Origin: Oceanimonas smirnovii ATCC BAA-899
GTDB taxonomy: Bacteria > Pseudomonadota > Gammaproteobacteria > Enterobacterales > Aeromonadaceae
Assembly: GCF_000381965.1 (NCBI RefSeq)
Contig: NZ_KB908461.1
Coordinates: forward strand, 1-64,000
DNA length: 64,000 nucleotides
Direction: 5' to 3'
Shown: piece after piece, positions 21,807 through 26,624 of the stretch
Numbering within the stretch: position 1 is the stretch's first letter
Layout of the letters: every line of letters begins with the position of its first letter
Translations under genes and position numbers: made by a program
The notes under the pieces: model-generated
What the model saw: only the letters and a program-made list of their open reading frames with translations
Database searches by the model: none
What the model was told of the DNA's origin: nothing

Positions 21807-21835
21807 TTGACCCCCATCAGGTAACCGGTTAGAGT
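21807..21835 (+). promoter_or_regulatory. Sigma-70 promoter of the cold-shock gene
   Basis: TTGACC (21807-21812), 17-base spacer, TAGAGT (21830-21835). Transcription from here would give a leader of about 130 bases before the ATG at 21971. Long leaders are a feature of cold-regulated csp mRNAs. Confidence 0.55.
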
Positions 21836-21970
21836 GAATTCGACTTTAAGGATACCGCTGAATTTATGTTCATTACGAAGTTCCTAGTAGTACCTCGTCC
21901 TGTATTTCATAAGTAAAGGTTGTGTTTTTGAAGTCGATTATTCTAGCAAGTTTGTTTACAGGATTTAGGT

Positions 21971-22180
21971 ATGTCTAACACTGTTAAAGGTAAAGTAAAG
22001 TTCTTCAATGAAGCCAAAGGTTTCGGTTTCATCGAGCAAGAGCAAGGCCCTGATGTATTCGTACACTTCAGCGCTATCCAGACCTCGGGCTTCAAGACCC
22101 TGGCTGAAGGTCAGTCCGTAGAGTTCACTGTAGCCCAAGGCCAGAAAGGTCCTCAGGCTGAAAACGTAGTTCCTCTGTAA
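21971..22180 (+). CDS. Cold-shock-domain protein (CspA family)
   Basis: Nucleic-acid-binding beta-barrel of 69 residues. RNP1 KGFGFI (residues 16-21) and RNP2 VFVHF (29-33) are intact, followed by the usual [21 protein letters not shown]. Such proteins melt RNA secondary structure. It is a single-gene unit with a long leader and a strong terminator. Which csp paralogue it is, and whether it is cold-induced, cannot be told from the protein. Confidence 0.95.
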
Positions 22181-22204
22181 GAGTCTGCGTTAACAAAGAA
22201 TTCC

Positions 22205-22233
22205 AAAGCCGCGCCCAAGGGCGCGGCTTTTTA
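22205..22233 (+). terminator. Terminator after the csp gene
   Basis: AAAGCCGCGCCC, loop AAG, GGGCGCGGCTTT and a short T tail. It lies between csp and the convergent MFS gene and could serve both. Confidence 0.88.
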
Positions 22234-22242
22234 ATGCCCGGG

Positions 22243-23555: not shown

Positions 23556-23927
23556 ATGACCGCCCCATCATCGAATCCCCAATCGCTGCAGCAAGCCTTT
23601 TCATTGGGTAACGGACAGGACGCGGCACTGAACTGGTTACGTAAAAACCAGACCCACTGCGCCATTTTTCTGACTAATGGTATCAAACTTGAAGGGATGA
23701 TCAGTGCCTTTGACCAATACAGCATTCTGCTGTCTGATCCCCGCGGCCAGCAGCAGCTGATCTACAAGGCCAAGATTTCCACCATTTCGCCGGCCAGCCG
23801 TCGCCCGCCGCGTTCCGGTGTAATCATCAACAAGCCCCGTCGTCCCCGCTATGACAATCACCATGATCATCACGGCCACCGGGATGATCATCATCATGGC
23901 AACGACAACCAGGGTGACGATCAGTAA
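23556..23927 (+). CDS. Hfq-like Sm-fold protein with a His-rich C-terminal tail
   Basis: 123 residues. Residues 22-79 follow Hfq: ALNWLRKNQTHCAIFLTNG, then IKLEGMISAFDQYSILL (Sm1) and QQLIYKAKISTISP (Sm2), compared with NGIKLQGQIESFDQFVILL and YKHAISTV in canonical Hfq. The Sm2 YKH, whose His lines the proximal RNA pore, is YKA here, and the N-terminal Q-D-P-F-L-N element is altered. The tail (about 83-123) is basic with several Arg and Pro, then very rich in His, Asp and Asn (eight His in residues 102-114). The gene is monocistronic and not next to miaA or hflX, so it is probably a paralogue rather than the main Hfq. RNA or metal binding is inference. Confidence 0.8.
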   Translation: MTAPSSNPQSLQQAFSLGNGQDAALNWLRKNQTHCAIFLTNGIKLEGMISAFDQYSILLSDPRGQQQLIYKAKISTISPASRRPPRSGVIINKPRRPRYDNHHDHHGHRDDHHHGNDNQGDDQ

Positions 23928-23943: not shown

Positions 23944-23973
23944 AAAAAATGGCCGCTTGCGCGGCCATTTTTT
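23944..23973. terminator. Bidirectional terminator between the hfq-like gene and dapA
   Basis: AAAAAATGGCCGC, loop TTGC, GCGGCCATTTTTT: a symmetric stem with T-runs on both strands, between convergent genes. The dapA stop codon falls at its end. Confidence 0.9.
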
Positions 23974-24844
23974 ATATCAGTTCCAGCTCTTCCATTACCC
24001 GGCGAATACGGGCCTTGGTGTCTTGCTGCAGCGGCACCACCGGCACCCGGCAATGCTCGCTGGCTTTGCCCAGCAGCGACAATGCATATTTGGGACCCGC
24101 CGGGTTGGGCTCAGCAAACAACACCTGATGCAGCGGCATCAGCTTGTCCTGCAGCTCACGGGCTTGTTCCCACTTGCCGTTCAGGGTCAGCTCCTGCAGC
24201 TGTGCACACAGGCGCGGGGCTACGTTGGCAGTGACCGAGATACATCCGGTACCACCACCCACATTGTAAGAAACTGCAGTGCCGTCTTCCCCCGAGAGCC
24301 AGGCAAAGGGCTTTTTAATCAGCTGACGCTCGGCCCAGGGACGGTTCAGATCACCGGTGGCGTCTTTTACCCCCACAATGCGCGGCAGCTCGGCCATACG
24401 GGCCAGGGTTTCCGGCTTGATGTCTACCACGGCACGGGGCGGAATATTGTAAACGATAATCGGCAGCTCGGTGGCATCGTGCAGCATCTTGAAGTGAGCG
24501 AACAGACCGTCCTGATTAGGGCGGTTGTAATAACCGGCCACATGCAGGGTAGCATTGGCACCGGCTTGCTGAGCGCACACGCTGTAGTCAATGGCTTCCA
24601 CCGGATTGTTGGAGCCGGCTCCGGCAATGACCGGGACCCGGCCAGCAGCCTGCCCGGCAACAATTTCAATCACCCGGCAATGCTCATCGTGAGACAGAGT
24701 CGGACTTTCCCCGGTGGTGCCCACCGGCACAATGCCGTGAGTCCCTTCCTCGATGTGCCAGTCTACCAGATGGCGTAACGCCGCTTCATCGATGCGGTTA
24801 CCATCAAAGGGAGTAAGCAGGGCAACTAAAGAACCGCGAAACAT
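23972..24844 (-). CDS. dapA: 4-hydroxy-tetrahydrodipicolinate synthase DapA
   Basis: Condenses pyruvate with aspartate semialdehyde, the first committed step of lysine and diaminopimelate synthesis. It is a TIM barrel with Schiff-base K160 (IVGVKDATGD), Y132 (VYNIPPR), T43-T44 (GTTGES) and Y106. Length 290. A strong site (AAGGAG, 5 bases before ATG 24844) sets the start. The gene is not followed by bamC as in enterics. Its leader contains a short Lys-rich ORF and a terminator (24885-25022), which suggests control by lysine through attenuation. Confidence 0.95.
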   Translation of the reverse strand: MFRGSLVALLTPFDGNRIDEAALRHLVDWHIEEGTHGIVPVGTTGESPTLSHDEHCRVIEIVAGQAAGRVPVIAGAGSNNPVEAIDYSVCAQQAGANATLHVAGYYNRPNQDGLFAHFKMLHDATELPIIVYNIPPRAVVDIKPETLARMAELPRIVGVKDATGDLNRPWAERQLIKKPFAWLSGEDGTAVSYNVGGGTGCISVTANVAPRLCAQLQELTLNGKWEQARELQDKLMPLHQVLFAEPNPAGPKYALSLLGKASEHCRVPVVPLQQDTKARIRRVMEELELI

Positions 24845-24884: not shown

Positions 24885-24920
24885 AAAAAACCCCGGGCGC
24901 AAATGCGTGGCCGGGGTTTT
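24885..24920 (-). terminator. Leader terminator (attenuator) upstream of dapA
   Basis: On the minus strand: CCCCGG, loop with an inner CGC-ATTT-GCG helix, CCGGGG, then six T. It lies between the presumed dapA promoter and the dapA start, 41 bases before the ATG, so it must be bypassed for dapA expression. The 5' part of the hairpin (24904-24912) can pair instead with the end of the leader ORF (24952-24960): TGCGTGACC with GGCCACGCA, eight pairs and one mismatch. Confidence 0.75.
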
Positions 24921-24953
24921 GATAAAAGAGAGTCTGAACGTATCAGGCGTCGG

Positions 24954-25022
24954 TCACGCAAAAAAGAGGACTGCTTTACGTTTAAGCAGTTTAACTGGTT
25001 TGCGTTTGACTATCACTGACAT
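24954..25022 (-). CDS. Putative Lys-rich leader peptide of dapA (attenuation)
   Basis: A 22-codon ORF with an AGGTG ribosome site 8 bases upstream. It encodes MSVIVKRKPV followed by KLLKRKAVLFFA and has five Lys codons (all AAA) at positions 6, 8, 11, 14 and 16, so the ribosome would be sensitive to charged tRNA-Lys. Its Lys codons overlap a perfect 7-bp hairpin (ACTGCTT/AAGCAGT, 24970-24990). Its stop codon lies inside the segment that can pair with the downstream terminator. This layout is that of the his, thr and leu leader peptides. I infer lysine-responsive attenuation; no homologue is known to me. Confidence 0.6.
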   Translation of the reverse strand: MSVIVKRKPVKLLKRKAVLFFA

Positions 25023-25051
25023 GAATAACACCTGAAAAAACCTTGTTCAGC

Positions 25052-25080
25052 ATCTTTTGCCAACCACCGGCAAATGTCAA
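25052..25080 (-). promoter_or_regulatory. Candidate dapA promoter
   Basis: On the minus strand a perfect TTGACA (25080-25075) is followed after 17 bases by a weak -10, AAAGAT (25057-25052). This would start the transcript about 20 bases before the leader ORF. It shares its -35 region with the divergent rsmC promoter. Confidence 0.45.
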
Positions 25081-26274: not shown

Positions 26275-26361
26275 GCGAGGGTGGCGGAATTGGTAGACGC
26301 GCTAGCTTCAGGTGTTAGTGTCCTTACGGATGTGGGGGTTCAAGTCCCCCCCTTCGCACCA
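26275..26361 (+). tRNA. tRNA-Leu (anticodon CAG), copy 1
   Basis: Class II tRNA of 87 bases with encoded CCA. Acceptor GCGAGGG pairs with CCTTCGC (one G-T), the anticodon loop is TTCAGGT, and the variable arm is GTCC-TTAC-GGAT. Nearly identical to E. coli leuPQVT-type tRNA-Leu. Confidence 0.98.
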
Positions 26362-26381
26362 CTGAGAAAAAATTTGAGCAC

Positions 26382-26468
26382 GCGAGGGTGGCGGAATTGG
26401 TAGACGCGCTAGCTTCAGGTGTTAGTGTCCTTACGGATGTGGGGGTTCAAGTCCCCCCCTTCGCACCA
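26382..26468 (+). tRNA. tRNA-Leu (anticodon CAG), copy 2
   Basis: Identical in all 87 bases to copy 1, 20 bases downstream of it, probably in the same transcript. Confidence 0.98.
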
Positions 26469-26538
26469 AGTCTTTGACTTGAGAGCAGCTCAAATTCCAA
26501 CATGGTGGCCCATGTAAAACAGCCGAACAATCTAATGT

Positions 26539-26624
26539 GCGAGGGTGGCGGAATTGGTAGACGCGCTAGCTTCAGGTGTTAGTGTCCTTCGGATGTGGGG
26601 GTTCAAGTCCCCCCCTTCGCACCA
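26539..26624 (+). tRNA. tRNA-Leu (anticodon CAG), copy 3, variant
   Basis: Same sequence as copies 1 and 2 except that one A is missing from the variable-arm loop (TCCTTCGGA instead of TCCTTACGGA), so it is 86 bases long. The stem is kept with a shorter loop, so the tRNA may still work. No clear terminator follows. Confidence 0.95.

Follow-up and report, generated by a model that had tools for sequence, protein, structure and literature searches.

What sets the expression of dapA in Oceanimonas smirnovii? In the window, by which we mean the whole stretch of 64,000 nucleotides analysed here (contig NZ_KB908461.1, positions 1 to 64,000), this minus-strand gene is preceded by a short ORF rich in Lys codons and by an intrinsic terminator, and the locus raises the question of whether these parts make up an attenuator that measures lysine. 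Leader-peptide attenuation is textbook knowledge for the his, thr, ilv, leu, phe and trp systems, and Vitreschak et al. 2004 is reportedly the main survey of proteobacterial attenuators. We consider it very probable that a ribosome-mediated transcription attenuator sets dapA expression according to the supply of charged tRNA-Lys.

The dapA leader and its parts

The gene 3' of the leader is dapA, with a match to TIGR00674 at 305.7 bits against a cut-off of 206.15. Its product is 91-93% identical to three Oceanimonas proteins, and a protein search found one DapA relative in the O. smirnovii genome at E 0.001. The features of the locus, all on the minus strand, are as follows.

25052-25080, minus strand: promoter candidate, with a -35 TTGACA at 25080-25075, a 17-bp spacer and a poor -10 AAAGAT at 25057-25052
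25029-25033, minus strand: Shine-Dalgarno-like AGGTG, 6 nt 5' of the leader ATG, recognized from the sequence
25022-24954, minus strand: leader peptide ORF of 22 codons, MSVIVKRKPVKLLKRKAVLFFA followed by a stop, recognized from the sequence, codon conservation, Lys enrichment and a rule-based scan
24970-24990, minus strand: 7-bp hairpin over Lys codons 14 and 16 (end of codon 11 through codon 18), from folding and pair counts
24960-24952, minus strand: predicted antiterminator 5' arm TGCGTGACC, which contains the leader TGA stop at 24956-24954
24947-24959, minus strand: possible small hairpin GCGT-GACCG-ACGC, seen by eye, its pairs not counted
24912-24904, minus strand: predicted antiterminator 3' arm GGCCACGCA, located within the terminator's 5' half and loop
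24885-24918, minus strand: intrinsic terminator, a AACCCCGG...CCGGGGTT hairpin with its core at 24916-24891 and T6 at 24890-24885, -17.9 kcal/mol
23972-24844, minus strand: dapA, 4-hydroxy-tetrahydrodipicolinate synthase, 290 aa, ATG at 24844

Most of these parts had been named in an original prediction made from the letters of the window. On rereading, the 22-codon minus-strand ORF holds all five of its AAA codons (codons 6, 8, 11, 14 and 16, the only Lys codons in the frame), and the pairing proposed between 24952-24960, over the stop, and 24904-24912 can be seen, though with one A-C mismatch (duplex -15.1 kcal/mol, shuffle p 0.03). The terminator is present as described, with CCCCGG (24916-24911) pairing with CCGGGG (24896-24891) ahead of T6, but the distance from its last T to the dapA ATG is 40 bases and not 41. 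The promoter of TTGACA type held up in part: the -35 hexamer is there, but the -10 is poor and a consensus scan reported no promoter on the minus strand at the leader. All 59 distinct Aeromonadaceae leaders have a TTGACA or TTGACT motif 40-80 nt 5' of their start, as do 8 of 9 leaders of family f10; in family f2 the count is 0 of 11. By a loose rule, a Shine-Dalgarno-like motif precedes 46 of the 59 Aeromonadaceae leaders (it is absent in the other 13), 7 of 9 in f10 and all 11 in f2.

The 7-bp hairpin that had been proposed over the Lys codons was located at 24990-24970 and may possibly act as an RNA polymerase pause hairpin. Within the genus, 80.5% of its cells are paired and two pairs are changed on both sides, with covariation not clearly above shuffles; the hairpin is kept in much of this genus only. 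By eye, it is replaced in the leader L020 by CCACGT/ACGTGG instead of CCGCTT/AAGCGG with the Lys codons retained, other short hairpins stand at its site in the leaders of genus g5, and it is not evident in Aeromonas leaders. In the O. smirnovii genome the hairpin itself scores as terminator-like and is followed by CCTCTTTTTT (window 24990-24960, minus strand), a T-run that by eye is missing in many same-genus relatives (alignment A2). The small hairpin at 24947-24959, which by eye is broken in one leader of the same genus (L025), may possibly occupy the arm when no ribosome is present.

Three further features of the window lie on the plus strand. An Hfq-like protein with a His/Asp-rich tail is encoded at 23556-23927, convergent to dapA (TIGR02383, 75.6 bits against a cut-off of 61.7); the Rfam cspA thermoregulator matches at 21828-22234 (82.1 bits against a cut-off of 78); and three tandem tRNA genes occupy 26275-26621, the first two being 84 bases each with equal scores.

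Conservation of the leader and its distribution

All 23 genomes of the genus, that of O. smirnovii included, carry the Lys-rich ORF, the arm and the terminator, in agreement with the conservation that had been proposed as a check. Among the 23 leaders (alignment A2) the peptide is typically MxFIVKRKPxKPLKRKAxxxVA. Arm and stop codon overlap in 21 of them. The exceptions are L020, whose stop precedes the arm by 6 nt, and L022, where an insertion of 1 nt has shifted the stop downstream of the arm. With these two left out for their indels, the remaining 21 aligned leaders retain Lys at codon 6 in 21, at codons 8 and 11 in 19 each, at codon 14 in 20 and at codon 16 in 18, so that Lys is kept in 18-21 of the 21 at each column and is not freely replaced. 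Changes at codons 5, 7 and 13 are mostly synonymous (CGC and CGT alternate for Arg 7, all four CTN codons occur for Leu 13, and Val 5 has three codons in 18 of 21). It is at third positions that codons 2-22 diverge most (0.312 against 0.224 and 0.231), which is not so within codons 18-22. Taken together, the third-position excess, the synonymous change and the held Lys codons are the mark of a translated frame that keeps its Lys codons. By eye, the ORFs differ in length by multiples of three, L020 and L022 being the exceptions. Codon 22, which forms the arm with the stop, is GCG in 21 of 21, and codons 18-21 vary freely; the segment between the two arms has a mean pairwise difference of 0.346 in the genus, and both arms are conserved.

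The search for this type of dapA covered the genomes of 61 relatives, 394 genomes of the order, 66 loci in a named-record collection and 369 genomes of the class. A leader was scored when an ORF of 12-42 codons with at least three Lys ended no more than 60 nt before a stable hairpin with a T-run. By this rule the order, family f3 excepted, has 121 positive loci out of 122; a genome that occurs in two collections is counted twice here, and the 122 loci collapse, identical leaders being merged, to 79 distinct ones. The sole miss is the f10 locus L133, which has a TTG ORF with three Lys and no terminator with an adjacent T-run, and which by judgement was left out of the Lys-spacing, permutation and duplex tests; the locus L089, which is without upstream DNA, was dropped. 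All 11 matches in f2 and all 12 in f10 were fetched, and the Aeromonas genomes G375, G294, G207 and G313 are not included under those handles.

At the 23 loci sampled for f3, made up of 20 of the 31 f3 matches, two Succinivibrionaceae MAGs and one Aeromonadales MAG, the scan found no Lys-rich ORF with a terminator; two of these loci (L086 and L149) seem to be one contig. Nor does a leader precede any of 11 paralogous dapA loci, ten of which come from genomes that also carry the leader-type dapA, although a laxer rule picks up a weak three-Lys ORF with a GTG or TTG start before two of the 11. One of the 11 (L177) is the dapA of G023, an Aeromonadaceae genome of genus g2 that has no leader-type dapA, its best DapA match being of the other type at 44% identity; no Lys-rich leader stands before it. 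Among eight upstream regions of distant dapA types that were scanned, weak three-Lys ORFs occur in three. In background windows the same rule was positive in 7 of 982, one of them the dapA leader itself.

Each distinct leader holds at least three Lys, and no residue is more enriched in the leaders than Lys, which in four groups exceeds its level in the long ORFs of the window 5.3-8.8 fold. The Lys codons of the 59 distinct Aeromonadaceae leaders are AAA 212 times and AAG 37 times; the long ORFs of the window use AAA 242 and AAG 309 times. The peptides vary by genus within the Aeromonadaceae, with KRKHK in most Aeromonas, RKPxK..SKPG in most Tolumonas and KRK-containing forms in g5. Leaders of f10 contain KKYKRPELKRGW, KLKRKLPK or looser KK-rich forms and those of f2 contain LKRKQDKQGKLKP, and the arm and terminator sequences in these two families are quite different from those of the Aeromonadaceae.

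In two further orders we found 20 loci at a cut-off of E 1e-90, in 3 of 63 genomes of one order and in 17 of 48 of the other. An ORF with at least three Lys followed by a terminator is present at 15 of the 20, and five are without a full leader. All three loci of family f101 encode VKKSKRR or AKKNKR ahead of a terminator, and 12 of the 17 loci of family f171 have peptides with at least three Lys, several of them KPVxxKR or KPVxxKQ, again with a terminator following. Among the exceptions, L198 has two Lys and L199 none, L204 and L208 have an ORF with no terminator by the rule, and at L211 neither a dapA start nor a leader was located.

A covariance model built on the Aeromonadaceae leaders gave, among the matches listed, one strong full-length match in each of the 23 genus genomes, always before dapA. 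It also matched, before dapA and at E 2.8e-5, the f2 leader of a genome outside the training set (G037); the f10 leader of G045 was not among the matches listed. Six of the next-best listed matches, five full-length and one partial, were rejected as leader copies elsewhere, since by eye five are ordinary terminators and one is a his leader. In the genome G043 the locus L185, a weak match to the dapA model (E 0.001), carries a his leader, MIILKAQNHHHHHTSMMAG followed by a stop, before a gene that by eye is hisG-like; this is the same architecture with another amino acid. The O. smirnovii genome likewise has a His_leader match, with MNTLHIAKHHHHHPH, at 49.8 bits against a cut-off of 49.

Lys codons, the predicted antiterminator and the terminator

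According to the mechanism that we propose, RNA polymerase would start about 20 nt upstream of the leader ORF, judging from the promoter candidate. When Lys-tRNA is short, the ribosome would stall on a Lys codon, its leading edge lying a little short of the arm at the stop; the free arm could then pair with the 5' half of the terminator once this had emerged, and transcription would continue into dapA. When Lys-tRNA is plentiful, a ribosome that has reached the stop codon would cover the arm and the terminator would form. What the sequences show is the parts, their conservation, the selective retention of the Lys codons and the distance of these codons from the predicted arm; that the ribosome stalls, that the two structures compete kinetically, which way the response runs and that Lys-tRNA is the signal are steps that we infer.

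The spacing between the Lys codons and the predicted arm bears directly on this proposal. We took the arm to be the best duplex between 18 nt before the stop and the terminator, which by definition excludes any position further upstream. In all 78 leaders of the order the start of the last Lys codon precedes the arm by at least 14 nt, with medians of 16, 22, 17 and 14 nt in four groups. If we assume that a ribosome whose A site holds a Lys codon occupies some 12 nt, counted from the first base of this codon, the arm would therefore stay free in 78 of 78. When the residues were permuted within each peptide with the arm held fixed, the clade-median chances of such spacing were 0.14-0.55, and their product over eight clades is 3.8e-5, a generous figure, since it treats the clades as independent. 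The distance of 14 nt between the last Lys and the arm is seen again in L192, which belongs to another order and whose arm has an unrelated sequence. We regard this geometry as the strongest mechanistic evidence for the switch. The spacing rule fits less well in f171 than within the order, since the last Lys lies 2-11 nt from the arm in three of its 12 leaders with at least three Lys (L205, L206 and L209) and the predicted arm of L207 overlaps the Lys codons; this lowers our confidence in attenuation slightly.

Across the 59 Aeromonadaceae leaders, 99.4% of the terminator's cells are paired, with one pair changing from A-U to G-C in nine leaders, and 92% of the antiterminator's cells are paired, far above slid versions. 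Covariation had been put forward as a check of the antiterminator; it was not above shuffles in these 59 leaders or in the genus, which counts against the attenuation model, and we rejected it as proof. Measured against shuffles, the duplex has p of 0.05 or less in 34 of 78 leaders, 0.05-0.2 in 32 and above 0.2 in 12. Among the 36 Aeromonadaceae leaders from outside the genus, 12 have a duplex that does not outperform shuffled sequences (p above 0.2, and at least 0.58 in nine), and nine of these 12 weak-duplex leaders are from Aeromonas with GGTAGCG terminators.

Families whose arm and terminator sequences differ still pair, with varying strength. In f10, GGCTGGGT pairs with ACCCGGCC, and the duplex reaches p of 0.05 or less in seven of eight leaders; in f2 it does so in only one of 11, and there the arm starts after the stop codon, so a terminating ribosome would mask it poorly (about 0.65 still paired). 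In L192, CTGCGGT..GGGT pairs with GCCTGACCGCAG (p 0.006 and 0.003), and in several f171 leaders an arm TGTAGG over a TAG stop pairs with CCTACA or CCTGCA of the terminator, the shuffle p in this family ranging from 0.03 to 0.83.

Folding simulations describe what such masking could do. Before the terminator 3' arm has been made, the predicted pairing of the arm, averaged over 79 leaders (L133 included), is 0.47 with no ribosome, 0.61 when a ribosome occupies the first Lys codon and 0.23 when one occupies the leader stop. Equilibrium folding of the full RNA was rejected as proof, the terminator winning in every ribosome state for most leaders, that of O. smirnovii included. The predicted equilibrium does flip between the Lys-stalled and stop states in three f10 leaders (L125, L128 and L129); L005, L013 and L021 show a flip when it is the first Lys codon that is occupied. 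Because the full-length equilibrium favours the terminator, the attenuation model needs kinetics, and the simulated folding is consistent with a kinetic switch only. The retention of Lys codons in the genus, and the recurrence of the arrangement elsewhere with different sequences, support the reading of ribosome-mediated attenuation that the original prediction had put forward.

Alternative readings and known systems

Other explanations of the locus have to be weighed against this evidence. The ORF alone would not be convincing: the window contains 751 ATG ORFs with 12-40 codons, 11 of which have at least five Lys. By itself it proves little, and it is the comparative evidence that makes the leader real. 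A stray terminator after a divergent promoter region, joined by chance with a random Lys-rich ORF, is thus refuted by conservation over at least five families against the low background of the rule, and we give it a negligible probability. It is also very improbable that the ORF is a functional micropeptide, with the terminator only ending a small RNA and dapA regulation secondary. The conservation of an ORF with its own start signals would suit a micropeptide, but its C-terminal residues are free except for the arm codons, and the leader is absent from the paralogs and, among the matches listed, always stands before dapA.

A nascent cationic peptide could instead arrest the ribosome on a small molecule such as free lysine, so that codon supply would not be the signal. 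Arrest peptides of this kind are known (TnaC and SpeFL with their ligands), and a KRK-type or other basic motif is conserved inside each clade. However, the peptides differ strongly between families (KRKPGKPLKRK, KRKHK, KKYKRPELKRG, KRKQDKQGKLK, AKKNKR, KPVSNKR) while Lys content is constant and most of them also preserve the distance to the arm; moreover, arrest at high lysine would raise dapA, contrary to the sense of feedback, and we consider this reading very improbable. A further variant, which we hold to be unlikely, is that attenuation senses the charging of both lysine and arginine, or basic residues, Lys being only the larger part of the signal. Arg adjoins a Lys in the Aeromonadaceae leaders listed, and in the genus the conservation of Arg at codons 7 and 15 (21/21 and 19/21) nearly equals that of Lys. 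There is a precedent in the orf34 leader before Salmonella speF, where Arg codons are used (PMC6386406). Against this, Arg is enriched only 1.09-1.84 fold in three groups and falls outside the top six residues in f2, far from the enrichment of Lys, and established pathway knowledge has dapA making lysine and not arginine.

Attenuation by charged tRNA-Lys would place the dapA leader beside the his, thr, ilv, leu, phe and trp attenuators (Rfam RF00514, RF00512 and others), with which it shares a short ORF rich in the end product, an arm near the stop, an intrinsic terminator and a biosynthesis gene; it differs in that the control amino acid is lysine and the gene dapA. No Rfam family, T-box included, matches the leader region at its gathering score; the scores below cut-off are 18.9 of 49 for His_leader (which also scores on the other strand), 14.3 of 50 for Leu_leader and, for the best, PyrR, 19.1 of 54. 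The orf34 leader resembles that of dapA in that leader codons sense a basic amino acid (Arg) and differs in acting via Rho, translation initiation and mRNA decay on polyamine synthesis (PMC6386406).

The L-box is the usual control of lysine genes, as the original prediction had remarked, and was considered here as well. Its covariance model (RF00168) has no match within the window, and the L-box was rejected for the dapA leader. The two lysine riboswitches of the O. smirnovii genome lie on another contig, before lysC and before a Na+/H+ antiporter-family gene, and not before dapA. The lysC next to its riboswitch encodes a lysine-sensitive aspartokinase 3 (666.8 bits). For the antiporter gene (L001, G000:C7), the only NCBIfam match at E 1e-20 is Tet(35), at 330.5 bits against a cut-off of 750. 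This riboswitch-preceded gene is perhaps lysW, a gene that a lysine riboswitch survey names with riboswitches in Oceanimonas sp. GK1 and Aeromonas (PMC5584792). Lysine riboswitches were found in 48 of 61 relatives, and the leader therefore adds to the L-box in these genomes. The L-box also controls lysine synthesis and transport genes in the literature; it differs from the dapA leader in being an RNA aptamer for free lysine (its model has 182 positions), whereas the sensor before dapA would be an ORF.

Our literature search covered open-access papers; it found no paper on a lysine leader peptide, and our claim of novelty is limited to that literature. A 2005 survey has L-boxes controlling lysine genes and attenuators controlling histidine, threonine and phenylalanine genes (PMC1262725). 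The words dapA and Aeromonas are absent from the main texts of a survey of terminator-based attenuation (PMC2965389) and of two surveys of structured RNAs (PMC2864571, PMC6429828). The nearest case is SEP5 of Sinorhizobium meliloti, a translated short ORF with six Thr and three Lys in a 5' UTR, which its authors suggest to be a leader peptide (PMC10117765). By its published description, SEP5 shares with the dapA leader its Lys codons in a short ORF before an aspartate-family gene, and it differs in being mainly Thr, in preceding an aspartate dehydrogenase gene and in being, per its authors, confined to Sinorhizobium (PMC10117765).

We think it likely that lysine-class leader-peptide attenuators, so far undescribed, act on a single dapA type in three orders and at least five families of Gammaproteobacteria, and that the same cells read lysine twice: the L-box before lysC and before a transporter-like gene would read free lysine, and the leader before dapA would read charged tRNA-Lys. 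On this reading the dapA leader is a new specificity of a known mechanism, and it is wider than one genome. It offers a simple rule for reading small Lys-rich ORFs before dapA in Aeromonas and its relatives and, if true, would fill a gap among the amino-acid attenuators, would provide a ready reporter for lysyl-tRNA charging, and would be a natural case of one cell measuring one amino acid by two independent routes.
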